DNA from: Tillus elongatus
Lineage: Eukaryota; Arthropoda; Insecta; Coleoptera; Cleridae
Length of the DNA: 64,000 nt
Direction of reading: 5' to 3'
Assembly (NCBI GenBank): GCA_964006375.1
Contig: OZ023262.1
Location: 95,934,976-95,998,975, forward strand
Shown: one piece after another, positions 14,934 through 52,434 of the stretch
How positions within the stretch are numbered: position 1 is the first letter of the stretch
Layout of the letters: every line of letters begins with the position of its first letter
Made by a program: the position numbers and the translations under genes
The notes under the pieces: model-generated
Told to the model about the DNA's origin: nothing
The model's input: the letters and a program-made list of their open reading frames with translations, nothing else
Database searches by the model: none

Positions 14934-17775
14934 TTTATTTATTTATTTATTTATTTATTTACTACAAATACTCAACGGAATTATCCCAAATTAAGAGTAT
15001 GAATACAATACATATCATACACTATAAAAATTAACATAGTAAAGTTCTACTAATTACCAAGCAGCGATGCAACATGTCTCATCTCAGACTCACCACAACA
15101 CAATATGTCTATTGACTGATGCACGTTGTTATAAATGGAGCACGATCTGTAAATCGGTGAGTTAAGCCTAACATTGGTCCTAGGTGGCGGTAGATAAAAG
15201 AAGTCGTGTCTTCTAGAGTTGACTCTATGGGGTGTGAAAAAGCAGAGTGCGCAACAGTTCAGGACAGACGATCCTACTGTGCAGTAAATTATGTATTAGG
15301 GAGAGAGCAGAGTAAACACGCCTAGCCTGCAGAGACTCCAATGAGAACCTCGACAGTAAATCGGCCTGTGGTGTACCGGTAGCGGGATACACCCGATCCG
15401 CTCTGTATGCAAGGAACTTTACAAATCTCCGTTGGACACCCTCAAGAGCCCCTATATGGACGTCATACAGAGGAGACCAGACCACACAGACATATTTCAG
15501 ATGCGGCCGCACATAGGCACAGAACAGGAGCCTCAAGGTGTCTGCATTATGAAACGAACCGGAATTGCGAATAAGAAATCCGAGTGTCTTCGATGCCCTA
15601 GCAATAGCATGTTCACAGTTCTCCACGAATGAGAGTTTCGAGTCAAAGACGACACCCAAGTCTTTAAAGGTTGCAGGTCTTAGAAGAGGCTGTCCATCCA
15701 TGGAGTATGGGAACTCGATTACACGGCGGTTGAGCGTATAAGATTTTTACAACACATTTTTTAATATTCAGTGGGAGGTTGGTTATAGAGCACCAGTGTT
15801 GAACTCTACGCAAACATCTCTTAAGCACTGAACAATCGCAGATACCAGCAACGGATGAGAAGATTTTTACATCATCCGCATACAGAAGATGGGGTAATTC
15901 GATAACATCCGAAATATCGTTGATAAACAGATTGAACAGCAAGGGTCCCAGAACAGATCCCTGAGGAACACCTGAATCAGCCAAGACCTCCACGGACTGA
16001 CACCCATGATAGTGGACAACACTAACTCGATCACGAAGATATGATTCCATAAACTTCAGCAAGTTCGGTGAGAAATCCATGTTATCCAGTTTCCTCAAAA
16101 TAATATCGTGATTTAATCTATCAAAGGCCCTGGAGAGGTCCAGGTAGATAACATCCATCTGCGACCCCTTGTCCATGGCAGCAGATATATATTCAGTTAT
16201 GCTGATTAAGTTAGTGGTCGCGGAGCGGCGCCTCACGAAGCCATGCTGAGCGCTGCTAATCACATTTTTTACCGCAAACGAAATTATCTCATGCAGGACA
16301 ATCTCGAACACTTTCGCAAAGTTGTCCATTATAGCAATTTGTCTATGGTTCTCAATCAACGTAGAATCACCTCTTTTTGGAACAGGTATTGACTTCGCCT
16401 TCTTCCAGGTGCTAGGAAATACAGAAGACCCCAGCGATATATTGAACAGTATAGTCAAGGGCTGAGCAAGTATGTGAGCACAATCCCTGACCAGAAAAGC
16501 TGGAATTTGGTCAGGGCCCGATGTGTGCTTCGGTTTGATCTTAAGCAACGCGCTTAAGACCTGTTCGTCCGAAACTCGTTTGATATCCAAGGCAGTCCCA
16601 CCACTGTAACAAGGAGCACAGCCCACTAAAACGCCGCCAGACGCATCCGAGAATGAGCCCTGAAAAAACTCAGCAAAGGTATTCACTGCATCTGCGTCGC
16701 TCGCAACAACCTCCCCCCTATATGAGAGTGTAGATTGACCAGATTGACCTTTTTTGAGGTTGGCATACCTCCAGAAGCTAGCCGGATCAACGCGGATATT
16801 TCTCTCCACCATCTCCTCATAAAGCGACTGTTTGGTTGCAGACAAGACCCTGACACGCCTTCTAAGTCCCCTGAATATCTCATAGTCCGCAGGATGATTT
16901 GAACGCTTAAAGCATTTCCAGGCCTGAAATTTTCTTCTTGTATAACTGATGAGTTCAGAGTCAAACCAGGGTGGATAGCGGCGGCGCACTCCTGAACATG
17001 TCATGGGTACGTAGAGGTCAATGATTGAGTATAACAAAGCATAGAACACGCGGCAGGCTTCGTCCACATTTGAGAACTGGGCAAGTGAAGTCCAGTCAAC
17101 TGAAGAGAGATGGTTATATTAACCAGGAAAGTTGGCTTTGCAAAAGGGGTATCGGAAGGATGTAGGTATGTTCACAGCGTGTTTGTTCACCGGACGTTCA
17201 ATTGTGAGTGTTATCTCAAGCGCGGGATGATGACCATCCTCGACCACCAATATGTCAGAAGCACCATGCACACAACCTCTCGCATTAGTGAAAACAAGGT
17301 CAAGAAGTCTGCCGTTGGTATTTCTGATTGCATTCAGTTGTTGCAATCGAAAAATGTCTTGCAATGAAAGAATGGTGCGCAATTTATTAGTAACTGGAGC
17401 TCCATCTATATAGGCAGCATATTCCGGAATATTGAAGTCGCCCAAGATTAATAACACGGAGTTCAAAAGAAATTCGCAGGCACACAAAGCATCAAGAAAC
17501 ACATTGAAAGCAAAAGCAGTGGTGTTGGGCACCAAATAGGTCAGAAAAACGAACAGTGGAGAATCGTTTATATATATCTTGACGCAAATAATATCTATCA
17601 GTGGTAGACTGATAAGATCCGCACTAGAGATGTCCACAAAATTTGCGTTATAGAGTGAACTGACGGCCAGTAGGATACCCCCACCTCGGCCAAGACCAGT
17701 TTGCTCAAATTTCCTGTCCGACCTGAAAATGGTATAACCACTTCCAAGTATTTCAGAGTTGCTCAGCACATAAGT
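14934..17775 (-). mobile_element. 5'-truncated jockey/CR1-type LINE
   Basis: The 3' end, at the low coordinate, is a (TAAA)n tail (14936-14961 read on the minus strand). The 5' end is lost within the endonuclease domain. It sits inside a transposase gene whose two halves flank it. A clear target duplication was not found. Confidence 0.8.
15052..17769 (-). pseudogene. LINE ORF2: partial APE endonuclease plus reverse transcriptase
   Basis: The protein nicks target DNA and copies its RNA there (target-primed reverse transcription). The endonuclease C-terminal half (17769-17119) shows LGDFNIP and DLVFTNARG. The RT (17067-15664) shows SGPDQIPA, HRQIAIM, IYLDLSRAFD, GVPQGSVLGP and LLYADDVKI, the last carrying the catalytic YADD. 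The tail (15701-15225) is the usual thumb/C-terminal region (KDLGVVFDSKLSF, YVRPHLKY). Breaks are a TAA at 17119-17121 in the same frame as the RT, a frameshift near 15745-15755, and another near 15235 before the likely natural stop at about 15052. The N-terminal endonuclease and ORF1 are missing. By overall look it belongs to the jockey/CR1 group. Confidence 0.85.
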
Positions 17776-19753
17776 TTAACCGAATTTCTAACGAATAGTT
17801 AGCGTCTCGTAATACACTTAAATTAATATTATCAAATACACCACGGATTCTGGCCTTCATATCTTCTTCTCTCGACGGATCTGTCTGATAAGCTAACTTT
17901 TTTACATAACCCCATAAAAAAAGACTATTTTTGTTAGACCAGATGACCTAGGCGGCCATGCATTCGACCTTCCTTTCCCAATTCAGCGTTCTGAAAAATG
18001 TTAGTTAAGAAAACCATAAATGTTAGCTGTATGATGAACTGAGGAACCATCATGCATACGTCGCATATGATCACGTATGCTAACAGGCAGTTGGTCTAAT
18101 AATGGTTCAAGGTCTTCTCTTAAAAACTAAAGATATCGCTATACAATGAGCTGTTCTTCAAAGAAATGCGGACCAATGACAAAATTTCCAATAATTTCAC
18201 CCCATGCATTAGGAAACCCCCTATTTTGACTAGTCGTGTAGTCGTGTGAGTAAAGTGAGGATTTCCAGTAGAATGTAAGTGAAAGTTATGTATGGTGACA
18301 TGTCCGTTCTTATGAAATGTTGCTTCATCAGTGAACAACACAAGGTTGAATAACCTTGTATCTCTTTGGATTTGTTGCTGTGTCCAGTGACAAAACGATA
18401 GTCGCCTTTGATGACCATCATTGTACAATTCTTGGATGAGTTGAATATGGTATGGATGAAATTTGTTTTTACGTAAAATTCGTAAAACAGAGGTCTTACT
18501 GATATTAATTTCCCTTGCTATTTTCTTGAGCTGATATGAGAGTCTTCTATCACTTTCAAATTTACTATCAACCCTTTCTCTTCGTTTAAAATAGGCTTGG
18601 TTCTCTCAGTCTTCTTGTATCCTGTGTTCCCCGTTTCGTCAAACAGCGCATCAGTCTTTCAAAAGCGCTTCTGTGTGGTTGTCTTCTATTAGGATATTTA
18701 TCATGATAGAATCTTTTTTTGTTTTTGTTACTTGTTGCCAACACATAAATCATATTAGTCATTTCTTGTCCAGAGAAATTCATTTTAGCGTCTTGTTTTA
18801 ATTCAAATATGAGAAAATAACTACTCTATTGTGTAAGGTAGTGGTTGACAAGTGATGGAAAACTTGACGTCAGTGTTTCTACTCACCCTGTATACTGTTT
18901 TCAAGGAATTCTTTATGTATTAATCGAAGTTGAAAGAAGAACACTCTTTTAGATTTTTGGCATGATATAGTCTTGCAAGCTGACATATGAATGAAGATAC
19001 AGACCGTCAAATGTGCCTCTGAAGTTTCCATAACTTTTGAACGACTCTGTAGACACTCCAACAACTATACGCTGGATCAATCGGCAAAACAAGAGGAAGT
19101 GAAGTTTGGTTTCTGTATCTAACTTATGCAATAGCCTGTATATGCAAAAATTATTTTAGTTTGTAGCTAACGTTGGAACCTGCAACTTTTGTTCCATTTT
19201 TGTTGTTGTTGAGTAATAAAAGAGATATTAAACTTGAACACACTGTTGGACCACTCTGTATGTTAAAAGCTTCAATCCTCACATAGTCACATTTATCTAT
19301 ACTTTATAATACCTTCAAAACCAATCAACAAAAATCGAGTGTTAAATATCTATTAATATGCATACATAATAAAAAAATCAGTACTGTGTTTTGGAACAAA
19401 GTTTCTGTAATGCTCGTAATTGATTCATGCTGCACCCAGAAAGCTACTGTGAGTAGGTAAATACTTGTGAGCTAGCCTCTAGCGACTCTATTAAAGTTTC
19501 TGCATTAAATTCTGTGTTTACTTGATAAAACTTTTTTTAGCTTTTAACCAGTATAAAACTACACACAGTCTGTTGGAAATTTGTAGCCAAAAAAGAACAT
19601 CAAACAATTTTTTCTGGTTAGGCGTTATTATTCATAAGCATTGTAAATGTTCCCTCGGCAAGGGATGTTTAAAATCCACAAAAAGATTTCGTCAAAATTA
19701 AAAACTCTTTCAGGGATTTTTTCGTAGCAAAGATTTGCTAATGAGTAAATCTG

Positions 19754-22805: not shown

Positions 22806-24080
22806 ATGCGAGATATGATGTGTCTTTATGCTCAGGACAATTTTTGTTCGCACAGAGCAGCACAGCGCTATGTTGAGCTTTATCCTGATAGAAGGCAACC
22901 ACACCGTAAAACTTTTAACGCACTGAATGATACATCAGATGAAAGTGGGTTATTTCATCCCAAAAACAGATATGCAGGAAGACCAAGTATAATGGATGCT
23001 GATATGGAAAAGGAAATCATAGTTCGTGTTGTAGAAGACGTGGGAACCAGCACGAGACCGGTATAAGCAAATCTTCGGTGCCAAGAATCATATGCAAAGA
23101 AAAGATGCATTCGTATCATTTCATTCGAATTCAGCGGATTTTACCACAGGACTTAGCAAGAAGACTTCAATTTTGCCAGTTTATGAGAGAACGCTATTTA
23201 GAGGAGCCAATGTTCTACAAGAAAATTTTATTTACTGATGAAGCTTCATTCACCAGAAGAGATATGTTCAATTTGCGGTATAGCCATACTTATGCCATTG
23301 AAAACCCTCATGCTATCCGCGGACATAATTTTCAACATGAATTTTTAGTAAGAATTAGGTGTGGCATTCTTAGAAATTGTATTGTGGAACCATTTGAACT
23401 GCCACCTAGACTTAACAGGGCAACATATCTCTTCTTTTTGAGAAATAATTTACCGATCATTTTAGAAGATGTACCTTTAACTTTAAGGAATTACTCTTGG
23501 TTCATGCATGATGGTGCTCCAGCACATTACATCCGAGACGTGCGAAGTTATTCAGATGAAATTTACCCTCAAAAGTGGATTGGTGGAGGTAGTGTGCACC
23601 CATGGCCAGCAAGTCGTCCCGACTTAAGTCAAATAGATATTAACTTTTGGGGATATTTAAAGTTACTGGCCTGCAAAGATCAAATAAATAACCTCCAGCA
23701 ATTATGAGAAGAGATTGCACAGAGTGTTAATGATATCAGAGCTAGACAAAATAATTTTTTTAAAGTAAGAGATAATTTTAATAAACGAGTGAGAAAATGC
23801 ATTGATGGATTCTAGGGAGCCTAGTTTGCGTACATTTAAAGATATCTTTTTAAAATTCTAAAGTCGAGGTCTCCTCGTGGACGAATTTTTGTACGAAAAT
23901 TAGCTAAAAATTATGGACCGTTAAACCATAAACTTAACTAAAACTACTGCCAAAGCACCAGAGAGAAAATAACTAACCTGTTGCATATCAACCCTTTTTG
24001 TAAAAGTAAGAGATAATTTTAATAAACGAGTGAGAAAATGCATTGCCGTAAATGGTGAACTCTGTCCACACTTACTCTGA
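22806..24080 (+). pseudogene. DD41D mariner-type transposase, inactivated
   Basis: The enzyme would cut and paste the element at TA sites. The N-terminus (MRDMMCLYAQDNF, YPDRRQPHRKTF) is of the DUF4817 type. A likely original start lies about 35 bp upstream, where the codon is now ATA. The catalytic residues visible are D in ILFTDEASF, D in MHDGAPAHY and D in SQIDINFWG, the last two separated by 41 residues. Breaks are a stop and frameshift at about 23058-23066 and a stop at 23705-23707. A 198-bp repeat fragment (23805-24002) splits the C-terminal RVRKCI from AVNGELCPHLL and is flanked by 43-bp direct repeats. Confidence 0.8.
23805..24002 (+). repeat. internal fragment of a GCAGC-TIR repeat used as filler
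   Basis: This is the A-D part of the modular repeat, starting and ending mid-block with no terminal motifs (compare 26978-27177). It is flanked by exact 43-bp direct repeats of transposase sequence at 23762-23804 and 24003-24045. Confidence 0.75.
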
Positions 24081-24967: not shown

Positions 24968-25340
<373 letters not shown>

Positions 25341-28742: not shown

Positions 28743-28890
<148 letters not shown>

Positions 28891-29330: not shown

Positions 29331-30067
29331 TTAAAGACAAACAAGTTACGGGCATTTAAAGTTTTCCTCAAAACGTCACAGTCGCGATTTGAAACGTCAA
29401 AGTTGACAACACTTAGGCAAAGAACCTGAAACAAATACGGATTATGCAAAGAAAATGTCAAAAGAAGAGTGTTCTGCAAACCCTTAAGTTTCAGCTTCAA
29501 CCGTCGTTGCCCTTCATTTTACTAAAGTTTTTCCAGAAATCGACCCTCTCTCTAATGCTTTGGCGATAGTTTTAGTCACATGGATGGTTTAACGGTCTAT
29601 AATGTTTAATTAATTTTCGTAGAAAAAAATCATTATTGTGGTGACCGCGACTTTTGAATTTTAAAAATATTTCTTCAAATGGGCGCAGACAGGGCCCCTA
29701 GAATCCATATTAGGGTTTAGTTTCAGTTCTTATCTGTTTTCATTTATACAGGATGACGCATTTCTACGGTAAAGCTCAATACAATATTGTTATTATACAA
29801 GATACGAGAAAAAGTGGTATACGTTAATTATAGAGTATCTTGAGCTGTATCTTATAAAATTATTTTGACAATCACAGGACGGCCCGTAAGTTGTTGGTAA
29901 TAACAAAAAATCTTTTTTCGAACACCTTATAGGTATTATTGCATTTGTGCATTTTTTATCGCAATATAATGCATGTTATAAGAAAAAAAGAACGAAAGCA
30001 TTTAAAGTTTATTTTCGGAAAATTTTCCCACATTTTCAAACAAAAAGTTAGTTTGATAAAATATGGT
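29331..30067 (+). repeat. GCAGC-TIR repeat fragment (D-A-C-part of E)
   Basis: D (ttacgggcatttaaagtttt ...), then reverse A with its hairpin (about 29600-29640), then C (gacgcatttctacggtaaag ...). A scrap of E follows. This order shows that the A remnant between D and C in the long form was once a full A block. Confidence 0.6.
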
Positions 30068-30440
<373 letters not shown>

Positions 30441-30739
30441 GCAATATCTCTCAAATTCTCTAACTGATTGAAAAGAATATTTACAACTTAAAAGAACATA
30501 GACAGACGTGGTTGTGTACTAATTTTCAAATGGTTTTATCAAAGCAAAATAAAGTTAGTAGAAATTTATAATAAAATAATCCTCGGCATCACTTCAGATT
30601 CTGTAATGCAATATCTACAATGTGGGACAAAGACAGATGACGTTATCTGTACCGCTATGCTATTTAAATAAATCATAGATAAAAATCTAAACAATGGAAG
30701 TTGTCGCGAAATGTCAGCCTGGAGAACGTTGTGAGAGAT

Positions 30740-30905
30740 ACCATAGGGACGCCATCTCGGTGCAGGACCAGGTAGTATGTTGTCACGATAGCTCTAGTTT
30801 AGACAAAATTTTATAGATGGAGCTGTGTACAAAGTACAATCAACTAAATGTAAATTGTCAGCCTTGGACCATTTATTTCATAATCCCAGGACAAAGTTTG
30901 CGTCC
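30740..30905 (-). repeat. diverged relative of the 33-kb hammerhead-containing unit
   Basis: It shares ggtagtatgttgtcac, aaattgtcagcc.tgg and ggacaaagt.tg with the units at 32858-33538, in the same order. No hammerhead core is visible here, so it appears to be an old partial copy. Confidence 0.55.
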
Positions 30906-30952
30906 AAAAGCGCCAAATTTTAGCATGCGAATGTATACTATAAATAAAAAAT

Positions 30953-31913
30953 TTCGGGACGCAGAAAGTGCGTTGTAGTGGTGAGTTTTCATAAGAATTG
31001 TACACTTTTAGTAAGATATATTATGAAAACTAATTCTTTAAATTTAAATGGACCTTGGAGATCGGTTTTAGAGTCCCAGTTAGCGATTATTTGAAAAAAT
31101 CTATATTTTATATGGAGATAAAAAATTAAAATTTGGTCTTAGATATAATATGTGAGTACTGCAAGTGTCTTTAAAAAATTGTGTTACAAATTTTATTAAA
31201 GTTACAAAAGTTTTTCAGAAAAAAATTCATTATTTATAAAGGGAATGTACCTGTCAAATTATAAATATGGCACGTATTTTTCCTTATTAATTGGTTGGAT
31301 GGTTTTGTTTCAGTCAACCCATCCAGTTTTTGCAAACAATAAACAACAATAAAAGTTTTTAATGTTATGGTAGAAAATTTTCGTAAAAATATTTCAAATC
31401 CGATAGCTCAATAAATGTCCCATTCAGCCAGAATCTTTAATATTGAACATCAGTAACACCTATGTAAACGCACGTGGGTAATAAATTAAAGAAAAATAAC
31501 ATAATGAGCTTTGCGGATAACTACACATTTGTTTTAAAAACCTTTTTTGTTGTTTATTGTTTGCAAAAACTGGATTGGTTGACTAAAACAAAACCATCCC
31601 AACAATTAATAAGGAAAAATAGCTGCCATATTTATAATTTGACAGGTACATTCCCTTTGTAAATAATTATTTTTTTTCTGAAAAACTTTTTTAACTTTAA
31701 TGAAATTTGTAACACAATTTTTTTAAAGACACTTGCAGTATTACATATTATATTTAACACCATTTCTTTTTCCAATAATCGCTAACTGGGACCCTAAAAC
31801 CGATCTCCAAGGTTCATGTAAATTTAAAGAATTAGTTTTAATAGTATATCTTACTAATAGTGTACAATTCTTATGAAAATTCACTACTATAACGCACTTG
31901 CTGCGTCCCGAAA
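30953..31913. mobile_element. fold-back element of the GCAGC-TIR family
   Basis: Two arms of about 370 bp (30953-31335 and about 31540-31913) are inverted copies. Each ends in the family terminal motif (ttcgggacgcag / ctgcgtcccgaa) around a roughly 200-bp centre. Shared landmarks are taagaattgtac near both ends and the pair taaagggaatgtacctgtca / tgacaggtacattcccttt. No coding capacity is seen. The target duplication is unclear because the flanks are A/T-runs. Confidence 0.75.
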
Positions 31914-32857
31914 ATTTTGTTTCTACTATATAGGTTATACCGGTAACCTTTGGTTTTTTTTTGAGGGTCAGTATATATATAAATATATTTACCATCAGCT
32001 TGTGTTGTATTTTTAAAAGGGTTGGGATTTTTTATTCTATTAAAAAACTGAACAACTGAAAATGTAACCAGTTCACTCCATAGCTTCATTATATTAATTC
32101 TAACAAACCAATATTTATTTTATAAAATCAATGCACAGTGTCGAACAAAATTCCTCATATGCAATATGAAAGCAAATATTTTACCTATGTATGCACCGTA
32201 AATAATATGGAAATATTGAAATTTTTGAAACCCGTTGTAAATACCAATATCAAACATTGCATCAAGCTTGTAATTTACATATACAGGAAATTAAATCCAG
32301 TGGAGTAACAAAAACCTCGACAAACAGTGCGTGTATTCACTAAATCAAATCTGTGACCACTATTATTTGCCCTTATGACGTTTCAATGTAATTCCCCTAA
32401 ATTCTGTTGTTTTGTGATGATAACAATAGCAGAACGAATAAAACGTGGCATGATTGGTGCTTTTAATAATTTAACGTTGTCTGGTATTATATAGAGGCGC
32501 TATCCCACGGTCACCGTTGGTTAGAAGTATTTGGAGAACCTCAAAAGCTATCAAATCAAAATTTCGTAAGAAGCCTTAACAAGCTACTATCATTTGATTT
32601 TAAATAATTCCAAAATGCCGGAACTTCCAGAAGTACCGGAAATTGACCATATTTTTTTATTTTTGTAAGATTCTAAATATTAGATTGACCTTACGGGACA
32701 TATCACTAACATAAAATGTCAGCTTTCAGAGATAACAACTGTTTTATGACAAAAATACTCAGTGTCAAAAACATTTGTAAGACTGGAACTAACAAAGATA
32801 GAACAACAACATTCTGGCAGTAGGCAGTCAAAACATTTAAATTTATTTTTATTTGTA
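31914..32857. other. no recognisable gene
   Basis: A short E-block scrap (ctatataggttataccggta, near 31924) follows the fold-back element. The rest shows no repeat block or coding motif that I recognise. Confidence 0.4.
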
Positions 32858-33201
32858 AGGCTAGATGCATTCTCGCAACAATTAGAACCGTAGACCGGTT
32901 TCGCTCTCATTAGAGCTCTTCAGTACGGCATACTAATTGTAGCAAAAATGCATCTAAACTAATACGGCTATAGTATAACCAGCCTTTCAACACTAAGTAA
33001 GTGGTGGACGTGCCGCCACCTAGTTGCGGAACCAAGTAGTATGTTGTCACGCCAGCTCCAAATAACACAAAGTGTTAAAAAAAATATAGACTGTATACAA
33101 CTAACTAAAATTTAGAAAATTGTCAGCCATGGCCCATTTCTACCCCAATATAGGGACAAAGTATGTAAGTCTAGATGCATTCTTGCAACAATTAGAACCG
33201 T
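32858..33201 (-). mobile_element. retrozyme-like unit: one ~309-nt monomer plus 34 nt of the next
   Basis: Read on the minus strand, the unit begins at about 33201 with ACGGTTCTAATTGTTGC, one base after the position equivalent to the hammerhead cleavage site. It runs about 309 nt to a hammerhead motif cleaving at 32893/32892. It then restarts with the same TACGGTTCTAATTG sequence for about 34 nt before homology stops. Monomer length equals the distance between equivalent cleavage positions. This layout is known for animal retrozymes, small non-coding retroelements thought to use Penelope-like machinery. No protein is encoded. Confidence 0.65.
32879..32939 (-). ncRNA. type I hammerhead ribozyme motif, canonical core
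   Basis: On the minus strand: stem I CCGTA with TACGG (extended past an internal loop by CAATTAG/CTAATTG), CTGAAGA core, stem II GCTCT/AGAGC with loop AATG, GAAA, a minimal self-complementary stem III ACCGGT, and a GTC cleavage triplet. Cleavage would fall between 32893 and 32892. All invariant core bases are present. The very short palindromic stem III is typical of hammerheads in Penelope-like elements and retrozymes, which are thought to cleave as dimers. Confidence 0.8.
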
Positions 33202-33202
33202 G

Positions 33203-33538
33203 GCAACATACTATCTGGTTCCGCAACTAGGCGGCGGCACGTCCACCACTCACTTAGTGTTGAAAGGCTGGCTATACTATAGCCGTATTACTTTAGATGC
33301 ATTTTTGATACAATTAGTATGCCGTACTGAAGAGCTCTAATGAGTGTGAAACCAGTCTACGGTTCTAATTGTTGCGAGAATGCATCTAGTCTTACATACT
33401 TTGTTCCTATATTGGGGTAGAAATGGGCCAGGGCTGACAATTTTCTAAATTGTTAGTTAGTTGTATACAGTCTCTATTTTTGGCGTGACTACTTGGTTCC
33501 GCAACTAGGTAGCGGCACGTCTACCACTCACTTGGTGT
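33203..33538 (+). mobile_element. second retrozyme-like unit, inverted relative to the first
   Basis: It starts mid-monomer (caacatactatctggttccg), passes through a second hammerhead motif at 33311-33371, re-enters the monomer start (tacggttctaattgttgcga) and ends near 33538. At about 336 nt it is one monomer plus roughly 27 nt. It abuts the minus-strand unit at the latter's predicted 5' end. Relative to the first unit it lacks seven bases around 33488. Confidence 0.65.
33311..33371 (+). ncRNA. type I hammerhead ribozyme motif, decayed stems
   Basis: Same layout as 32879-32939 with core CTGAAGA (33327-33333), GAAA (33348-33351) and cleavage triplet GTC (33355-33357). Stem II has mismatches (GCTCT/AGTGT) and stem III reads CCAG instead of the palindrome CCGG. 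It is probably weak or inactive. Confidence 0.65.
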
Positions 33539-33834
33539 CATTTTTATTTGATTTAGTTTTGAATATTGTTCACAGGGCGGTTTGAAAAAAAAATTTGAAC
33601 GGGTTCAACACAAAGTGCCAAGAAGTCACTTTTTTTAGATGGCACACCCTGTATGTTATAAGTATGTTAGATGCAAGATTAGACTCCACCTTAAATTTCA
33701 CTAGCATCCCTATACGTAACTCTTCAGATTTTCATTAATTGTAATTATTTGAATTGATTTGGCATGACCACGAAATCAAGACCAGGTAGCCTAAGCTAAT
33801 TTAAAACATAGTGGACATTGAAAGTGTATATTAC

Positions 33835-34603
33835 CAACCACTTATGGGCCAGCATGTGATTGTCAAAGTAGGTTTATGACATGCAGCTCGAGACACCACC
33901 CTATAATTAACGTATATCATTTTTTCTCTTAAGAGCCTCGGCGGTTCAGAGGTAAGAACGTGTGCCTCTGAACCGAAGGGTACTAGGTTCGATCCCAGGA
34001 TTCTCCTTTCACTTTTTCAGTACAAACTGTAACATTAACATCAACCGAGGTTCTGGCATTGTATTTGAGCAAGTTGAATGTCTGCACGTTCCGCCCTTCA
34101 GAGGGGGCGTAAAGCCGTCGGTCCCGTGTCCCTGCAATGTTGGGCACGTTAAAGATCCCCACCCTCCTTACAGAAAAGCAGGGGTTCGGCAAAATTTCCG
34201 GGATAGTGAGGTGAAACTGCTCCCTGGCGTCGGTGATTGGCCGTAGTCGCGGAAATAGGCCGACGTTAAAAAAACACAACAACACAACATTTTTTCTCAT
34301 ATCTTGTATAATAACCGATATATTGAGCTTTACCGTAGAAATGCGTCAGCCTGTATATGTATAAACAGCCAAAAACTGAAACTGACCCCGTATATGAGTT
34401 TTAGGGGTTCTAGTTCGTGCTCATTTGAAATCTTTTTTAAATTCATAAGTCGCGGTCTCCTCAATAATGAATTTTTTCTACGAAAATTGGATAAAATATA
34501 GACTATTAAACTAAACTCTACAGCTGAAACTACTGCCACTTACAAAAAGAAGGTACCTACCAATTTTCATCCAAATCTGTCCATTATTTTTCAGTTATTG
34601 TTA

Positions 34604-34822: not shown

Positions 34823-35927
34823 GTATCACACCGATAACTCAAAAAATAATGGACCGATTTTAATTAAATTTGGTGAATACCTTTCTTTTGCAAATGGCTT
34901 GGATAACTTCGTTATCCAGGAAAATCGGCCCAGGTTTTCCCGGAAAATTTTGTGTTTTCTTTCGAAAAAAATTAATATCTCCGGAAATAACAAAGTAAGG
35001 GCAACCAAATTTGGTACACTGGTTTACATCCTTATAGGTAAGTTACCTACCAAAATTTAGCTCTGTGGGTCAAAATACAAAAAAGTTATAGGCATTTAAA
35101 GAAAAATAAATTGGGGTTTTCCTCAAAACGTCAAAGTTTAAAATGTCAAAATTGGCAACATTTAGGCAAATAACTTGAATCTAATACGGGCTATGGAAAT
35201 AAAATGTCTCAAGAAGAATGTTTTACAAACCATGAAGTCTTAGTTTCAACCATCATTGTCCTTCATTTTAATAAAATATTTCCAGAAAATTCATTTCAAA
35301 TAGATCCGGTCTCTGATGTTTGGCAGTAGCCTTAGCTATAGAGTTTATCGTTTAATGGTATATAATTTTTGTATAATTTTCGTAAAAAATCAATAAAGCT
35401 CAATATATCCGTTATTATACAACATATGAAAAAAATTTGTATATATTAATTATAGAGTGTCTTGAGCTACATCTTAAAAAATTATTTCTACAATCACAGG
35501 CTGGCCCATAAGTCGTTGGTGATACAAATTTCCTTTTTTTTTAATCAAACACGCCTTATGTGCATTTTTGCATTTTTCATCGAAATATAATGCATGTTTG
35601 TAAAAAAAGAAATTCTGGACGCAGTAAGTGCGTTACGGTAGCGAATTTTGATCAAATGCTTCATATTTGAATTGCTCAATTTGCTATTAACCTATAAGGT
35701 TGACCAAGAAAGGAGTTTTTTCGGGAACACTTTAAGTTTACTTTCGGAAATTTTTGTACATTTTCAAACAATAAAGTTATTTTGATGAAACATGGCACAT
35801 TGTTTTTACTATATAGGTTATACTGGTAACCAAATTTGATGCCTGCTTTCTTAAAAAAAACACATATTTGCTATTAAAAATATTTTTATGAAAATTCACC
35901 ACCATAACGCACTTGCTGCGTCCAGAG
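34680..35927 (+). repeat. GCAGC-TIR modular repeat, near-complete long form
   Basis: Truncated reverse A (34680-34732), (TA)n and (GTAT)n (34733-34826), B (34827-34990), D (34990-35370), A remnant, C (35396-35608) and E bounded by inverted terminal motifs (35612-35927). Block order is identical to 12396-13764. It is non-coding. Confidence 0.7.
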
Positions 35928-40784: not shown

Positions 40785-41854
40785 ATGGTGTATTCTGTAG
40801 AAGAAAGAGTTGTTATAATTACTCTTTAAAAAATAACGATGATTATGTCAACCGTACCGCAAATTTGTTTATTGAACGACATCCGAACAGACATGTTAAC
40901 AGAAAATACATTTTGGAGTTAGTTGCAAAGTTTCGACAAAGTGGTTCAGTAGCCAACAAAAAAACGGGATCCTGAACGTGAATTTTCGGTTAGAAATGAG
41001 ACTACTGAGATTGAAGTTTTAGGACAAATTGCTGCAGACCCAACTTTGGCCACGAGAAAATTGGCCACTGTTTCAAACATCAAAAGAAGAACTATTTAGC
41101 GAATATTGAAGCACCATAAATTTCACCCGTATAAAATTCATCTTGTACAACTGAATGAGGATTATTTTGATCGGCGGCTGGAGTTTTGTGAAGTTACGAC
41201 TGCACGAATAGCTGATAACTGGAACTTTCTGTTTAATATCTGTTTTTTAGACGAGTGTACGTTTTTATTAAACTCTACAGTCAATCGTCATAATTGTCGT
41301 TATTGGGCAGATAATGATCCAAGAAATTTTCACGAAGTCCACACTCAAACTCCACAGAAATTAAATGTCTGGACTGGCATTTTTGGAGACCGTTTAATCG
41401 GACCAATTTTTCTTGAGGGCAATTTGGGTGACGAAACGTATTTGGAGTTACTAGAAGATATCGTTTACCCTCTACTAATTGTCATTGTTGAAAATGATGA
41501 TCGCTGTCAAGAAAATCAATTAGTGTTTCAACAAGATGGAGCTCCTCCGCATTTTTCACAACGTGTTAGGGAGTTTTTGAACAGGAAGTTTCCAAGACAA
41601 TGGACAATGGTGCTATTGAGTGGCCCCCTAGATCACCGGAGGTAACTGCTTTAGACTTCCTTCTATGGGGCCGTTTAAAGAGTAGAATTTACGCAACAGA
41701 ACGAGAGTCTCTGGAAAAATTACGACGACGCAGTGTTGAAGAATGCCGTCTAATAACTCCACAAATGCTCCAGAATGTCAGAGCTCGTATTGAACCAAAT
41801 TTGTACTTTTGTATTGAAGCTCGTGTTCAACAATTTGAACACTTACTTAACTGA
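40785..41854 (+). pseudogene. mariner-type transposase (DUF4817 group), inactivated
   Basis: It would catalyse TA-targeted cut-and-paste transposition. The N-terminus starts MVYSVEERVVIITL. After a frameshift near 40828 comes ERHPNRHVNRKYILELVAKF. The linker LATRKLATVSNIKRRTI ends at a TAG (about 41097). The catalytic part shows CFLDECTFL, WTGIFGDRLIGPIFL, FQQDGAPPHF and, after a small deletion near 41605, EWPPRSPEVTALDFLLWG. Third Asp spacing is compatible with DD41D once the deletion is allowed for. It ends VQQFEHLLN, 18 bp before the left LTR. Four disruptions make it non-functional. Confidence 0.85.
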
Positions 41855-41872: not shown

Positions 41873-44310
41873 TGTTACGTGTAAAATTCACCTTAAGCAT
41901 ATTAACATCATTAACTACACGTAGCAGGCAAAATAAACAAAAACACCCCATATAATTATTCGGTTTCATATTGTTATTGGTTTAGGGACAGCTGTGAACG
42001 AACATCTTTAATTTGTTATCTACATTCATTCAGTTTCAATTTCTAGAAGTCGAGATTTACCACCGAAACAGTCGACAACGGCAGAGTACACTGTCTTGTG
42101 AAGGCATGGTTGCCAGCACGTCATTAATTTATTGTCTGTCTAACTTTAGCTGGTTGGAAATTACTGAATTATGTGTTAATGTAGTGAGATAAATTCTTGC
42201 ATGCAGAACTGTGGTTACAACGGTCTCTATAAGCTGTGGAAGAAGTTTATTATCGAGATTAATATTGGAAGTTAGGTGTGTTACATATGTCGAGGTCTTG
42301 CGGTCGAAGCCCGAATTTCCCCATTCGTGTAAATGTCGCAACTCTGCGGTATTAAGTTATTCGTTGCCAGAGTTTGATATTTTTGATGGAAGAACGGGAC
42401 ACCATTTCTTGTCGTCTTTTTTTGTTGACCGATAGCGAATCAGCAAGATTAGCTATGACCTGGGAGAGAAAACATTTTTGAGAAAAAAAGGTTGGTTTTG
42501 AAAACGGTGGAAGAAGCAATTTAATTTGAGTGTGTGGCAAGATTTCAGCTAGAAAAAAGAAACAGGCAAGTGGGCCATTCATCCTAGTTTGGAGATTAAT
42601 TTCTAGGCTGTAAAACGATTATAGTATTCTGGAGGTTCGGGAAGTTGAAGCGAATTAGTCGCATAGTACTTGAATACTATAATATTCCCGTGGTGGAGAG
42701 TAAATGTCACATACGTAAAGCCGAAAAAGCAAGTGGCTTTGTGGCTTGTTTTCAATCAGAACCGGCTTGTCTAACTGTGGTCAACAAAACACCTTGACAT
42801 AACATAGAAACCCTCAGGATTTGGAGGTAATACCCAACTCGTAGTTTTTTTTATGTGTAACTAAGGCGTGTTTTCTCTTTCTATTTGTTACAGGGTTTTG
42901 GTTTTAGCTTTTGGTTTTAGCCTTTGGTTTTAGCTTTAGTTTCAGTTTTTGTCTTGCTTTAATTGATTTTATAGTGCCTAATCGACAAGCAATAGGCCTA
43001 CATATTGTCTTAAACTAACGAGTGGTCAATGGGAGAATAAGAATATTGGTATGGTACCATTTTATGGCGCAAATTCAATTATAAGCCATTCCCAGCAACA
43101 TCAGATTGCCGAGGACATTTCGTTGTTGAGTAGAGGAAGTACAGGTGGCCGGAAGGTACCGACACAGTGGACAGTAGATATTTTGTTAGCGAAAAATCGA
43201 CCAGAGAAGGTTCACTGGAGACCAGACCTTACAGGTAGTAGTCTTTAAGTTGTATTGTTAATAAAGAACTCAATTTGTTTGTTTGGACTTTTAAATCCAG
43301 TATTAAGCTGTGACTTTACTTATGGTGGTCAAGTTTTGGAATTCAAAGATAAAGTTTTAACGATAACACAATAGGATAAGATACCCAGCTTTTTATTTGA
43401 ACCCTACACGTTAGCTGATGATTTATATTCACATTATCATTAATATAATTGCTTTGAGTTTGATAAAGTATTATCATTATTTAGGCTACCATTTGATACA
43501 CCTTTTCATATTTTAACATCTTTGTAAGCTGATCGTGATCACGAAAGGACACAAATTTCCATTTGATTTAGCTTAGTTACTTTTATTGTTGCGTTTGAAT
43601 TACTTGACTTGTTATTGCTTACCATACGAACGTTAGTAGCTTAAAGCTATTTGTTTAGCAGTAAATTATTGAGATATAGCAAGTGAGTCATTTTGCGGAC
43701 TCTGTTATTCATTTAACATACATGCTAGCAATTTATAGGTTATATATGTGTATATATAATACTGTTTTTGATCTGTCTGACCACTTGTAGGCATCATCTG
43801 GATTTTATAATAAACTAGAATTTTATTTTATATATATATTTGTGTGTCGTTTGTTCTGCACTCACCTCTCACTCCCGTATTAGTAACGTTAGGTGCTGTT
43901 TAGTGTTTGTCAGCTTCTACGTAAGCCTTTAAGATATTCCAACTGTAAGATTTCGTTCCCACATTTGTACATTCCGACGTATAAGCCTGCGATTTTAGGT
44001 GCAGCTGCCAGGGAGGTCCAAGGAGTTCTTGGTTGTGTTGGATTCTTGGTAAGCTGGATTTCGTAATTAACATCTCTTATAAATATCCGGAACTAGGTGT
44101 AAAACAATCAAGTGGCGCCCTCATAGAGTAACACCTTATAAAGAACCCTGCCCATCTTCACTGTATAAAAGCTAGGGGCCACCTAGATTTCCGGTAACGT
44201 TGACCTTTCTATCGATCGTCGTATGTAGGTTGTTTGACTCTCAAACGTGGTAAAGGTTTTTAGGAACAGGGATTCCTAGGATCGATTTAAAGAGATAGTG
44301 GGCGGTCACA
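41873..44310 (+). repeat. left LTR (2,438 bp)
   Basis: Starts TGTTACGTGTAAAATTCACC and ends GTGGGCGGTCACA. A TATA-box-like TATAAAAG lies at 44164-44171 and an AATAAA at 43260-43265. The interior contains a 65-residue open frame (43051-43248) ending just before that AATAAA; its meaning is unknown. Every position has its counterpart 7,226 bp downstream. Confidence 0.93.
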
Positions 44311-44314
44311 TATT

Positions 44315-44332
44315 TGGCGCCCAACGTGGGGC
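44315..44332 (+). promoter_or_regulatory. primer binding site, tRNA-Lys type
   Basis: TGGCGCCCAACGTGGGGC lies 4 bp after the left LTR. It matches the 18-nt site complementary to the 3' end of the tRNA-Lys isoacceptor that primes several retroviruses (Lys1,2 type). Reverse transcription of the minus strand would start here. Confidence 0.9.
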
Positions 44333-44606
44333 TCGATTCAGCTCAAAAAGGGCTTATTTTTTTGGGTTTTTAGAGATTTTGGAAGCCGTAGTATTGGACT
44401 TGAACTTTTGTGTAGTTGTGAGAGTAGGGCTTTGGGGAGTAAAGTCGTTTGGTTTTGGCGTATTGATCTTGCCGATGTACGGTGTTGTTAGCTTTCTCAA
44501 CTAATCGGGTGTGAGAGTGCAGACTGCATTTATTTTTTTTATTTTTTTTTACTGTATTGTTAGGTAGTTATCTTGATTCCAGTGTGGGTTTATTTTTTTT
44601 CCAATC

Positions 44607-45938
44607 ATGGCTCGTCGTATGGATGTATATAGACTGGACAAAGAAGAGCTCGTATATGAATTAACGGTACGTGGCATAGCTACTGGCACGGTGGAAGATA
44701 TGCGCGGTCGTTTAACCTTAGCGCGCCAAATGGAAAAGTCTGGCGATAGTCTACATTATCCTAAGTATCCATTTACGTTTGAGGAAGATCTTGGTGTTGT
44801 GCAGGGAAAACTGGAAGGCGTGTTGGCTGTCTTAGAAGAATTTCAAGGAGATAGCAAGGACAAGCAGTTTCTAAAATTGCAGACAAAGTTGGCTCACATA
44901 TTGGGAAGGATAGATAATATGGAATCTGCGGATGAAGAAAAGAAGAAGACTCGAGGTGAATTACTTGCTCGTACGTTATCGATGATTGACCAGCTCAACA
45001 CCAAAGCGTCAAAAGTCGGGAGTGAAACACAACCTACTCCTTTAGGTTTGCAAGTAATGGAAGCATCTTTAGGGAATCAGTTGAAGTTCGAAACCCCTCA
45101 GTCGTGTTCTTCACCCATGATGTCTGCTGCGCAGTCGCTTAACGCGTCGTTGATTAAGCCGGTGCTCCCTCACAAGTGGAACTTGAGGTTTGGTGGAGAC
45201 AGAAGAGGACTGTCTGTGACTGCTTTCTTCGAACGTGTCGAGGAAATGAGAAAGGCCAGAAATGTCAGTAAGGAGATCCTATTGGAGTCAGGAATAGATT
45301 TATTCGAGGGTAGAGCATATGAATTTTATCAGGATGCTAGGAGTGAAGTGTCCCAGTGGGATGAACTTGTAGGAAGATTCAAGGAAGAATATCAACCCGT
45401 TTTTTATAGCGAGAAGCTTCTGGATGAGATAAAGAAGAGAAAACAAGGAGCAGATGAGACCATAGGAACTTATTTGGCTATTATGTCGAAATACTTTCAA
45501 AGATTGCAATGTCAAGTCTCGGAGGAAACGAGGTTGAGTCTCCTAATGCGCAACTTAGCACCGATGTATCGTAGCCAACTGGGTGCTATGGAAATAAATT
45601 CAATCGCCCAGCTGCGTACTTTGTGCAAGAGGATAGAACAACGATCCCAGGCTGGTGAGTTTGCACATCCGCCAAAAAAAGAGCAGATTTTGGAGCCTGA
45701 TTTGGCATACGTGGGTTTGGAAGAGAAGACCGAGAGACTGCAAGTATCGTCTAACCAGGGTGGGCGTAGCCAGACGAGGCATAGTCCCGTCGTCTGTTTC
45801 AACTGTAGGAAGCCAGGCCACATAGCAGCAGGTTGTACCGAGAGAAATAGACTCATCTGCCACAAGTGCAATAGGGAAGGCCACATTGCTCGTAATTGTC
45901 CCAGAGGTTTTTCGGGAAACGGAGTGCAGCGCTCTTAG
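44607..45938 (+). CDS. gag: Gag structural protein of the gypsy element
   Basis: The 443-residue protein would form the virus-like particle and bind genomic RNA. The N-terminus (RLDKEELVYELTVRGIATGT) looks like a SAP-type helix pair. Residues of about 190-350 are a capsid-like retrotransposon gag region (e.g. GLSVTAFFERVEEMRKARNV, EETRLSLLMRNLAPMYRSQL). Two CCHC zinc knuckles follow: CFNCRKPGHIAAGC (397-410) and CHKCNREGHIARNC (418-431). The ATG at 44607 is the first in frame after the primer site and lies about 300 bp from the LTR. The last 43 bp overlap pol in the -1 frame, with a slippery site inside. No stops or frameshifts interrupt it. Confidence 0.92.
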   Translation: MARRMDVYRLDKEELVYELTVRGIATGTVEDMRGRLTLARQMEKSGDSLHYPKYPFTFEEDLGVVQGKLEGVLAVLEEFQGDSKDKQFLKLQTKLAHILGRIDNMESADEEKKKTRGELLARTLSMIDQLNTKASKVGSETQPTPLGLQVMEASLGNQLKFETPQSCSSPMMSAAQSLNASLIKPVLPHKWNLRFGGDRRGLSVTAFFERVEEMRKARNVSKEILLESGIDLFEGRAYEFYQDARSEVSQWDELVGRFKEEYQPVFYSEKLLDEIKKRKQGADETIGTYLAIMSKYFQRLQCQVSEETRLSLLMRNLAPMYRSQLGAMEINSIAQLRTLCKRIEQRSQAGEFAHPPKKEQILEPDLAYVGLEEKTERLQVSSNQGGRSQTRHSPVVCFNCRKPGHIAAGCTERNRLICHKCNREGHIARNCPRGFSGNGVQRS

Positions 45939-48900
45939 AGAGTCGAGCTGATAGTGCTGCCGTTAAGTACTCGACTACTGTCAAACCTGTTTTAGATTTC
46001 ATCATTGACCATGCACAGAACGATGAAAGGCCTCACCTTAGAGTGGACATATTAGGGATTACCTTGCTTGGACTCCTAGATTCCGGGGCGTCGAGAACAA
46101 TTTTAGGTGGACCAGGTTGGGACCGTATCGCGAAGTTGCGAATACCCCTGGACGAATCGAAGAAGACATCATGCACAGTCGCTAATGGAGAGAAATGTGA
46201 AAGTATTGGTACGTGTGAATTACCAATGAAGGTTCGTGAGCGTCTAAAGTTTATAGAGGTGATGGTTGTCCCTGAACTACCACATGTTTTGATTTTGGGA
46301 GCAGACTTTTGGATAAGGATGGGGATTGTTCCTGATCTGAGGCATAACGAGTGGCAATTTTCTAACTGTCCTGAAGTAAGCACAGTAGATATAGCTGATC
46401 AGTCAGTCTTGGAAGTTGGACAGAAGAAGCAGTTGGAGGAGTTAATCAACAAGAAGAAGACTTTGCTCGGAAATAGTTTGGGTTGTACAAATATGACGGA
46501 ACATGTGATCAAGACTAATGCACCACCGATTAAGCAGAGATACTATAGGGTATCCCCAGTGCTTCAGAAATACATCGATGAAGAATTAGAAGATATGTTG
46601 AAGAACGATGTCATAGAACCTAGCAGTAGTCCGTGGGCGTCGCCAATAGTTCTTGTAAAGAAGAAGGATGGTTGTTATAGGTTCTGTGTCGACTACAGGA
46701 AGCTTAATGCAGTGACCGAACGTGATGGCTATCCATTGCCAATGGTTACAGACACGTTAGACAAGCTTCGAGATGCGAAGTATCTTTCTAGTTTGGATCT
46801 GAAGAGTGCATTTTTCCAAGTCCCTGTTGCCGAGTCTTCAAGACCGTATACTGCGTTTACCGTCCCCAATAGAGGACTATTTCAGTTTAAAAGGATGCCA
46901 TTTGGCCTGCATAATTCTCCTGCAACATGGCAGCGTTTGATCGATCGTGTGTTAGGATCGGACCTGGAACCTTACGTGTTTGTATATTTAGACGATGTAG
47001 TGATCACGACTCCAAGTTTTGAAAAGCACCTCGAAGTGTTAGAGGAAGTGTTTGAACGCCTGAGAAGAGCCAATCTAACCGTCAATTGGGAGAAAAGTCA
47101 GTTTTGTAAGCCCGAGATGAAGTACTTGGGTTACGTGGTGGATAGAGAAGGGTTAAGAGTGGACCCTGATAAGGTCAGAGCAATGATCGAGCTACCTACT
47201 CCGACCAATGTGAGGGAAGTGAGACGTGTACTAGGTATGCTGTCCTGGTATAGAAGATTTTGTCCTGATTTTTCTACTGTGGTCGCACCAATCACAGGGT
47301 TGCTGAAGAAAAGTACTAAGTTTTGTTGGACTCCTGAGTGTGATAGATCTTTCAGGAAGATTAAGGAGTTGTTGATATCTGCACCTGTTCTGGGTTGTCC
47401 AGATTATTCTTTACCGTTTGTTGTACACACAGATGCATCGGGCTATGGTATTGGTGCGATGTTATCTCAGACGCATCCAGATGGTGATCGTGTGATTTGT
47501 TACTTGAGTCGTTCTCTGTCACGCCAAGAACGTAATTATTCCACGACAGAACGAGAGTGTTTAGCGGTTCTGTGGGGAATAGAAAAACTGCGTCCTTACA
47601 TCGAGGGAGTAAAGTTTACTGTCATCACCGATCATTATAGCTTGAAATGGTTACATAGCCTCAAGGATCCATCAGGAAGACTTGCAAGATGGGCTGTACG
47701 CTTGCAGCAGTATGATTTTGAGATTGTTCATAGGAAAGGCAAAGACCACGTAGTACCGGATGTACTGAGCAGATCTGTACCAGTGTTAGACGTCCTGAAC
47801 AGTGTGGAGACAGAGACGAAGACTACAGACAAGTGGTATTTGAAGATGATAGAGCGGGTACAAACTACACCTCTGAAGTTTGGGAATTGGAGATTGTCAG
47901 GTGACAAGTTGTATAAGTACGTGAGGCAAGATTATCCAGCACTTACGCCTAAGCAAGATGTTTGGAAGATTGTCGTTCCTAAAGACCAGCGACGAAGACT
48001 CTTGTCAGAAGCTCACGATCCAGCTACATCGGGTCATATGGGAGTCTATAAAACCTACTCAAGGTTAACTGATAGATATTATTGGCCGAAGATGCGACAG
48101 AACGTTGCGAACTATGTCCGCAAGTGTACCATATGTGCTGCGCACAAGGTGGATCAACGAGGTCCCAAGGACATGATGGTGTCGCATGCTAAACCGTCGA
48201 GACCGTGGGAGATGATATCAGTGGATTTAGTGGGTCCTTTACCACGTTCATCGAAAGCCAATAGTTTTATCCTGGTTGTCACAGATTATTTGAGCAAGTT
48301 TGTGTTAACCTTCGCTTTGAGGAAGTCCATCACCGACACGATTATTAGAAGTCTGGAAGAAGGTGTATTTCTGTTATTTGGCGTACCGAAGATGATAATG
48401 TGTGATAATGGTCCCCAATTTAAAAGTTCAGCTTTCAAAAGGTTTGCCGAGAAATACCAGTGCAATTTGAAGTTTAGCGCGAATTACCATCCGCGCGCAA
48501 ACCCTACCGAGCGAACTAATCGTACAATCAAGACCATGTTGGCAATGTATGTGAATGATAACCACAAGAAGTGGGATGCTGGGCTACAACAGGTGACTTG
48601 TGCTGTGAGAACATCTCGACATGAGACGACTAGATTGTCACCGTATTATGTCAATTTTGGGCGATGTATGGCATTGTCAGGAGCGGACTACCAGAATCAG
48701 ATTGATTTGGACGGCGAGGATGAAGATGTGTTGGTTGACAAGAGCAGGAACATCGTGTTCAAGGAGGTGTACAGGGACGTGAAACAGAGACTGGAGAAGG
48801 CTACTAAGAAGGCTGTGGCGAGGTATAACATGCGCAGACGTTATGAAGAGTATGAGGTGGATCAACCTGCGATGAGGAGGAATTACGTGTTGTCAGATGC

Positions 48901-49057
48901 AACGAAGAACTTTGCTAGTAAGTTAGCTCCAAGATACATAGGACCGTTTTATGTTAGTAAGAAGGTGTCTCCATGGACGTATGAACTTAGAGACAAAGCT
49001 GGCCAGAATAGTGGAGTTTGGCACGTGAAGGATCTGAAGCTTGTTCCTTCTGATTAG
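45896..49057 (+). CDS. pol: Pol polyprotein: protease, RT, RNase H, integrase
   Basis: This 1,053-residue frame is probably made only as a Gag-Pol fusion through the frameshift, so its own ATG need not be used. Order: aspartic protease with LLDSGA (catalytic Asp62); reverse transcriptase with VYLDDV (YLDD at 364-367) after MPFGLHNSPATWQRL; RNase H beginning HTDASGYG (about 511); integrase with zinc-binding H/H...CTIC (about 706-745) and catalytic Asp in SVDLVGPL (about 776), Asp in CDNGPQF (about 837) and Glu in NPTERTN (about 872), the last two 35 apart. A GPF/Y-like C-terminal module (APRYIGPFYV) ends it, with no chromodomain. It is uninterrupted. The order RT-RH-IN is that of Ty3/gypsy. 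Confidence 0.93.
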   Translation: MSQRFFGKRSAALLESRADSAAVKYSTTVKPVLDFIIDHAQNDERPHLRVDILGITLLGLLDSGASRTILGGPGWDRIAKLRIPLDESKKTSCTVANGEKCESIGTCELPMKVRERLKFIEVMVVPELPHVLILGADFWIRMGIVPDLRHNEWQFSNCPEVSTVDIADQSVLEVGQKKQLEELINKKKTLLGNSLGCTNMTEHVIKTNAPPIKQRYYRVSPVLQKYIDEELEDMLKNDVIEPSSSPWASPIVLVKKKDGCYRFCVDYRKLNAVTERDGYPLPMVTDTLDKLRDAKYLSSLDLKSAFFQVPVAESSRPYTAFTVPNRGLFQFKRMPFGLHNSPATWQRLIDRVLGSDLEPYVFVYLDDVVITTPSFEKHLEVLEEVFERLRRANLTVNWEKSQFCKPEMKYLGYVVDREGLRVDPDKVRAMIELPTPTNVREVRRVLGMLSWYRRFCPDFSTVVAPITGLLKKSTKFCWTPECDRSFRKIKELLISAPVLGCPDYSLPFVVHTDASGYGIGAMLSQTHPDGDRVICYLSRSLSRQERNYSTTERECLAVLWGIEKLRPYIEGVKFTVITDHYSLKWLHSLKDPSGRLARWAVRLQQYDFEIVHRKGKDHVVPDVLSRSVPVLDVLNSVETETKTTDKWYLKMIERVQTTPLKFGNWRLSGDKLYKYVRQDYPALTPKQDVWKIVVPKDQRRRLLSEAHDPATSGHMGVYKTYSRLTDRYYWPKMRQNVANYVRKCTICAAHKVDQRGPKDMMVSHAKPSRPWEMISVDLVGPLPRSSKANSFILVVTDYLSKFVLTFALRKSITDTIIRSLEEGVFLLFGVPKMIMCDNGPQFKSSAFKRFAEKYQCNLKFSANYHPRANPTERTNRTIKTMLAMYVNDNHKKWDAGLQQVTCAVRTSRHETTRLSPYYVNFGRCMALSGADYQNQIDLDGEDEDVLVDKSRNIVFKEVYRDVKQRLEKATKKAVARYNMRRRYEEYEVDQPAMRRNYVLSDATKNFASKLAPRYIGPFYVSKKVSPWTYELRDKAGQNSGVWHVKDLKLVPSD
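45914..45920 (+). promoter_or_regulatory. -1 ribosomal frameshift slippery heptamer
   Basis: G GGA AAC in the gag reading frame, a canonical X XXY YYZ heptamer also used at the gag-pro junction of some retroviruses. It sits in the 43-bp gag/pol overlap, 18 bp before the gag stop. Slipping back one base continues directly into the open pol frame. A downstream stimulatory structure was not modelled. Confidence 0.8.
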
Positions 49058-49083
49058 GCTTAACCTTACGGTTAATCCTCTTG

Positions 49084-49098
49084 AAGTAAGGGGGGGAT
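49084..49098 (+). promoter_or_regulatory. polypurine tract
   Basis: AAGTAAGGGGGGGAT directly precedes the right LTR. RNase-H-resistant purine tracts at this place prime plus-strand synthesis. Confidence 0.85.

Positions 49099-51907: not shown

Positions 51908-52434
<527 letters not shown>

Follow-up and report, generated by a model that had tools for sequence, protein, structure and literature searches.

The question raised by a short inserted element in the clerid beetle Tillus elongatus is which enzyme mobilizes animal retrozymes. Published animal retrozymes are units of ~170-400 nt with a GC content below 45%; they are highly self-paired and, where target-site duplications are present, these exceed 4 bp (PMC7229834). 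Penelope-like elements have been considered a strong candidate mobilizer by the retrozyme authors, as both groups share type I hammerheads and tandem occurrence and co-exist (PMC7229834). The element studied here lies in a window of 64,000 nt, the whole stretch of DNA that was analyzed (assembly GCA_964006375.1, contig OZ023262.1, positions 95,934,976 to 95,998,975); all coordinates below refer to this window. Where two units lie inverted within a single duplication, the integration step has left a physical trace, with both outer ends and the join readable. Scored genome-wide, such traces would make the question of the mover enzyme computable and would reveal whether the ribozyme cut sets the cDNA ends. 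The features of the locus are as follows; sense position 1 of the unit is 33201, and the minus-strand unit covers positions 1-310, then 1-36.

32856-33539, inserted element of 684 bp, made up of two head-to-head retrozyme-type units
32845-32855, plus strand, left 11-bp direct repeat ATTTTTATTTG, presumed target-site duplication
33540-33550, plus strand, right 11-bp direct repeat ATTTTTATTTG, presumed target-site duplication
32856-33201, minus strand, minus-strand unit, 346 nt (the 310-nt monomer and the first 36 nt of the next)
33202-33539, plus strand, plus-strand unit of 338 nt, covering sense positions 154-310 followed by 1-212
33199-33201, CGT microhomology at the junction, fitting both units and 1-4 nt from the cleavage-equivalent position
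32939-32879, minus strand, complete type I hammerhead (Rfam E-value search and mechanical descriptor)
33312-33372, plus strand, decayed hammerhead with weakened stem II and non-palindromic stem III
30900-30750, minus strand, diverged relative of the unit (sense positions 37-188, ribozyme part absent)

The two units form inverted arms of 198 nt with 94% identity, starting at 33199. The RNA of the minus unit has its 5′ end at 33201 and its 3′ end at 32856, and the unit shows a direct period of 310 nt, with copies at 32854 and at 33164 and without any intervening coding part. These arms and this period bear out an inverted pair of ~310-nt units, as had been proposed before any search was run. That sequence-only reading bounded the pair at 32858-33538 and overlooked an exact 11-bp direct repeat, ATTTTTATTTG, whose copies directly adjoin both outer ends; as this repeat bounds the unit pair, the element is widened to 32856-33539. 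When random pairs of sites with the same spacing and no TA-repeat flanks were drawn, an 11-bp match within 3 nt of slack was found in 18 of 91,733; with TA flanks allowed, 99 of 40,000 pairs matched, and 46 of 40,000 at zero slack. No terminal inverted repeat was detected (the two ends agree at 5 of 25 terminal bases, and within the terminal 30 bases no local match is longer than 4 bp). There is no poly-A tail at either outer end, and no open frame of at least 100 aa overlaps 32856-33539.

Judged from its bounds, the stretch 32856-33539 most likely entered as a single 684-bp insertion, and we read it as one retrotransposition event rather than as a DNA transposon or as two insertions lying side by side. 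Units longer than one monomer and the lack of terminal inverted repeats fit reverse transcription of a multimeric or circular RNA primed at both cut ends; together with the 11-bp repeat they support the earlier proposal that RNA was copied into DNA here. With arms that are offset, match at 94%, and lie between the copies of a direct repeat, the pair was not taken for a palindrome artefact of assembly or sequencing.

The core of the minus-strand hammerhead is intact, with C3 at 32923 and C17 at 32893. Its parts follow in the order CUGAAGA, a 5-bp stem II, GAAA, ACCGGU, and C, and the predicted cut site falls between 32893 and 32892. Stem III (ACCGGU) is palindromic; stem I consists of 6 bp, then a small internal loop, then 7 further bp, and its pairing continues outward as a longer stem. 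A mechanical type I descriptor run over both strands of the whole window gave this hammerhead as its single match (background, a match in 1 of 60 dinucleotide shuffles). A stricter pattern including the ACCGGU stem III, devised after inspection of the sequence, was found at one site and in none of 100 shuffles. The covariance check was negative at Rfam gathering thresholds, at which the whole window gave no match, and positive at the E-value level: on 32500-33900, HH9 (RF02275) matched 32928-32887 of the minus strand with 24.8 bits (E = 0.0018), below its gathering score of 52. The stem III loop of the HH9 model is absent from this hammerhead. The canonical ribozyme claimed earlier at 32879-32939 of the minus strand is thus upheld by the intact core, the descriptor match, and HH9. 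In energy terms, the 61-nt monomer prefers, by prediction, a core-burying fold (-20.6) to that of the hammerhead, which reaches -17.4 if stem III is left out and -11.7 if its single pair is included. A 26-codon frame from an ATG in hammerhead loop II is reminiscent of the frame starts of Penelope-like elements; it was left unused because, by our own estimate, such a length is common by chance.

The hammerhead of the plus-strand unit has retained CUGAAGA and GAAA. The 3′ side of its stem II reads GUGU instead of GAGC, its stem III has become ACCAGU with loss of the palindrome, and it was reported neither by the mechanical descriptor nor by Rfam in E-value mode. On these grounds only one of the two hammerheads is complete. 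Of the earlier claim that each unit contains a type I hammerhead, the minus-strand half holds, while the plus-strand copy is decayed and escapes both searches. Compared with the minus unit, the plus unit shows two deletions, one of 26 nt and one of 7 nt, along with a 1-nt insertion; its last base, 33539, falls outside the alignment.

With 310 nt and 39.4% GC, the unit lies within the size and composition ranges of animal retrozymes. The minimum free energy of the circular unit was -106.8, against -70.0 ± 5.0 in 100 shuffles, and 70% of its bases are predicted to be paired in the circle, which agrees with the high self-pairing of retrozymes; the antisense circle reaches just -75.7. A type I hammerhead with a complete core is present on the minus strand only, and the duplication, at 11 bp exact, is longer than 4 bp. 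Hammerhead type, unit size, GC content, self-paired fold, and the insertion flanked by 11-bp direct repeats all support a retrozyme-derived locus, and the earlier retrozyme assignment is kept in that sense. Release of a unit from RNA requires two hammerheads in the same direction. No direct tandem with two same-strand hammerheads is present at the locus, each strand holding 1.1-1.2 units and at most one hammerhead; since neither strand has two, we name the locus retrozyme-derived and not a retrozyme. In the predicted folds of both 684-nt transcripts, 59 of the 61 hammerhead bases are paired outside the ribozyme and none within it. Since RNA transcribed across both units would fold back upon itself, we predict a dead end, with the locus unable to release RNA again. 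A working retrozyme is thus not supported, as no strand carries two hammerheads and the complete one is predicted to be masked by the inverted unit. The locus could possibly be a source of double-stranded RNA.

A diverged copy without ribozyme had been noticed nearby, and the alignment confirms it: sense positions 37-188 are found at 30900-30750, with 68% identity to the unit. The relative starts at position 37 and so adjoins the 3′ end of the minus unit, at 36; positions 36/37 may represent a preferred end, which two copies are insufficient to show. A further tandem piece at 30560-30748 was rejected (score 23.0; mean of 300 shuffles 20.4, maximum 35.5). Two regions are present in three copies. 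Over 51 nt, each of the 7 variable sites is private to a single copy; over 36 nt, one variable site is private and another has a different base in every copy. Between the 198-nt arms there are 12 differences, of which 9 are transitions. Such star-like variation would fit decay following one insertion. Within one unit, copies differ at up to 6 of 51 sites, so mixed templates are a possible source of the differences between copies.

Sequences related to the unit were also sought in other collections. A 16-mer of the hammerhead was found in 2 stretches of viral contigs, where the best alignments to the unit covered 16-17 nt (E 0.001-0.004) and were judged to be chance. A loose hammerhead pattern occurred in at least 120 viral stretches, with E of at least 0.74 for the best unit alignments among the matches listed, and two longer unit patterns gave no matches in viral contigs. 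An 18-mer matched one stretch in prokaryote genomes, no more than chance by our own estimate.

The surroundings of the element are rich in repeats of other kinds. Long, near-perfect TA dinucleotide arrays are numerous across the window (e.g., 24974-25105, 28743-28890, and 51908-52043). Adjoining the diverged relative is an inverted repeat of ~1 kb at 30934-31930 (arms 30934-31362 and 31534-31930, 85% alike), perhaps a foldback or MITE-like element. Dispersed direct repeats at 29500-29878 and 35249-35500 (81-86% alike, 5.6-5.8 kb apart) flank the element region. Just downstream of the element, at 33935-34005 of the plus strand, a tRNA-like box (GGTTCGATCCC) possibly marks a tRNA-derived SINE; ARAGORN found no tRNA in the whole window. 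A Gypsy-type LTR retrotransposon is bounded by direct repeats of at least 1,975 bp with 100% identity (42000-43974 and 49226-51200, extents limited by the compared stretch 42000-51200), and by this identity its insertion appears to be very recent. Between the repeats are a gag frame (44577-45938) and a polyprotein frame (45896-49057), and a search with the polyprotein returned 2,497 matching proteins. The window has 33 open frames of at least 100 aa; among the 10 submitted to Pfam were a reverse transcriptase, a zinc-knuckle gag, and one frame with sub-cut-off matches. The reverse transcriptase remnant, probably of a LINE, runs in several frames over 15225-17775 of the minus strand (RVT_1, E = 1.4e-28, 15667-17118). 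The weak matches belong to the frame 18123-18605 on the minus strand and lie below curated cut-offs (MWFE, HTH_7, and HTH_Tnp_Tc3_2, including helix-turn-helix models of transposases and resolvases). The plus-strand frames 23003-23707 and 41100-41645 resemble mariner-type transposase remnants by eye and gave no Pfam match.

The point at which the two units meet bears on the role of the ribozyme. The CGT at 33199-33201 fits both units, so the join matches the cleavage position only within 1-4 nt, and the end of the minus cDNA lies within positions 1-4, i.e., 1-4 bases short of the cut. The sequence-only reading had put the join at exactly the cleaved end; its nearness to the cleavage position stands, its exactness does not. 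By our own rough estimate, the chance of such a join near the cut is ~2% for one end and ~6% for four ends. Given this chance and the blurring of the junction by 3 nt of microhomology, run-off of cDNA at a ribozyme-made 5′ end is only suggestive.

The explanation that we favor, with a probability of about 0.52, is that the 684-bp stretch is a single insertion of a retrozyme-type hammerhead RNA, with both cut ends of the target priming and a Penelope-like enzyme acting in trans. First, another site in the genome would have produced RNA of the ~310-nt unit, either tandem or circular. AT-rich target DNA would then have been cut in a staggered manner, leaving 3′ ends 11 nt apart, as the 11-bp repeat suggests. 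The left 3′ end would have primed a cDNA from position 36, through one hammerhead, to 1-4 nt from the next cleavage position, and the right 3′ end a second cDNA from near position 212, ending at 151-154 of an upstream unit; the end points of both cDNAs can be read in the element, and the direction of copying is the presumed one. The two cDNAs would have been joined at the CGT microhomology into a head-to-head pair, and filling in of the flanks would have produced the duplication. The microhomology and the repeat are there to be seen; the order of these events is the presumed one. The copy would later have decayed, the plus hammerhead losing its stems, a presumed timing for differences that are present in the units today.

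Head-to-head repeats inside one short duplication are a Penelope-like feature, and they are found at 32856-33539. The arrangement was seen at one locus only, no second copy of it being observed. Neither a Penelope-like gene nor a GIY-YIG domain was found in the 10 of 33 window frames (at least 100 aa) run on Pfam; for an enzyme in trans, no such gene need be in the window. Published work also weighs against the favored explanation. The cDNA starts proposed here, 36 and 212, differ, whereas with the Anolis Penelope-like enzyme both strands share one pair of adjacent start sites (PMC11167929). In addition, the authors of the work on Adineta invoke antisense self-priming, not two target ends, for head-to-head forms (PMC3846280).

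A more specific proposal, which we put forward only tentatively, would make the locus a fossil of Penelope-type dual-strand priming on ribozyme-cut RNA, in which cDNA run-off at the hammerhead-made 5′ end became the joint. In the Anolis system hammerhead mutants left in vitro insertion unchanged, and no RNA-seq reads started or ended at the hammerhead cut (PMC11167929), which is evidence against a role of the cut. If the proposal is true, Penelope-like enzymes move retrozymes and the insertion junction is shaped by the ribozyme cut. The self-masking inverted form would then be a by-product that removes copies from the retrozyme cycle, and it could feed small-RNA silencing.

The main rival to a Penelope-like enzyme priming from both ends is twin priming of the LINE type, which we consider unlikely: a LINE enzyme in trans would have used both target ends to prime the copying of a single linear multimer of the retrozyme type, with the cDNAs then annealing at a microhomology. 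Twin priming also gives rise to the inverted form, a point against the favored explanation; its inverted 5′ parts come with duplications, and microhomologies are found both at the inversion junction and at the outer ends (PMC2912911). The CGT at the join and the TG at 32854-32855, which is common to flank and unit at the left outer end, agree with this, as does the reverse transcriptase remnant at 15667-17118 (RVT_1, 1.4e-28). The 15-bp duplications of Nematostella hammerhead repeats have likewise been compared with those of LINEs (PMC4918200). For human L1, however, 5′ inversion has been reported to be uncommon when Alu or SVA RNA is mobilized in trans (PMC2912911). The outer ends of the element, moreover, are without a poly-A tail. 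Such a tail is not required by every LINE.

Self-priming, in which the 3′ end of an antisense multimer folds back at the CGT and primes its own copying, would account for the head-to-head form and for the CGT common to both units at the join, and it is the model favored by the Adineta authors for head-to-head Penelope inserts (PMC3846280). It seems improbable here. The antisense transcript that it requires contains no hammerhead, and only coincidence would then place an end close to the cleavage position. In multimer numbering the plus unit spans 154-522 and the minus unit 1-346; as the plus unit extends past the minus-copied region, snap-back on the minus-unit cDNA itself cannot produce it. 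No more credible is a solo pair of pseudo-LTRs from a Penelope-like element in place of a retrozyme-type unit. The pLTRs of Penelope-like elements do bear type I hammerheads and occur inverted (PMC11167929, PMC3846280, PMC7761336). The minus unit, however, has a direct 310-nt periodicity without an intervening coding part, and CCGG is retained in its stem III, whereas the hammerheads of Penelope-like elements have been described as minimal, usually without the non-conserved helix III nucleotides (PMC7761336). A Penelope-like element itself would have an open frame with a telomerase-like reverse transcriptase and a GIY-YIG endonuclease; no frame of at least 100 aa overlaps 32856-33539.

We also give little credence to a direct tandem insertion that was subsequently rearranged by inversion or palindrome formation. 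Direct tandems are the described form of animal retrozymes (PMC7229834); however, the 11-bp repeat bounds the inverted pair exactly, so any rearrangement must have spared both outer ends. Foldback and Mutator-like elements have inverted arms and 9-11-bp duplications. The long arms and the 11-bp duplication at the locus recall such an element, but its capture of a hammerhead repeat is very improbable, the outer ends being unrelated (5 of 25 terminal bases, best local match 4 bp), and a DNA-transposon origin was set aside for want of terminal inverted repeats.

Insertion by a Penelope-like enzyme from both target ends, the favored explanation, can be set beside several known systems. The element resembles the animal non-LTR retrozymes (Cervera and de la Pena 2020, PMC7229834) in its type I hammerhead, ~310-nt unit, 39% GC, strong self-pairing, duplication of more than 4 bp, and partial direct repetition in each unit. 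It differs in that two units lie head to head in one insertion, whereas the published forms are direct tandems; the main text of that paper contains none of the words inverted, opposite, and head-to (PMC7229834). Among the open-licence papers listed by literature searches, no title or abstract opening describes a head-to-head retrozyme insertion, and such a description may exist elsewhere. The ribozyme itself is similar to the amphibian HHR_Amex1, compared by description, in which helix III consists of one base pair and a palindromic tetraloop (here A-CCGG-U); HHR_Amex1 cleaves much better as a dimer (PMC7229834). LINE-1 5′-inverted insertions share inverted cDNA parts, microhomology at the join, and a target-site duplication (PMC2912911); here there is no poly-A tail, and both parts are longer than one repeat unit.

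In Adineta vaga, several Penelope elements have inverted pLTRs inside 8-10-bp duplications, and head-to-head has been called the commonest inverted arrangement; some copies are without a duplication, and Pen1 copies have mostly direct pLTRs (PMC3846280). Inverted non-coding repeats placed head to head within one short duplication are thus common to these elements and the present one, which differs in its fuller hammerhead and in having no open frame or reverse transcriptase. The Adineta head-to-head forms have palindromes at the join, the basis of the authors' self-priming model (PMC3846280); at the present join a CGT microhomology is seen. The purified Anolis Penelope-like enzyme initiates inside its RNA and cuts and extends both strands, preferring AT-rich sites with an ATT motif (PMC11167929). 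It acts on its own RNA, the hammerhead cut is dispensable in vitro, and its starts are identical on both strands, all unlike the insertion proposed here; its two-strand cutting and extension, however, are the activity that the 32856-33539 insert would have required (PMC11167929).
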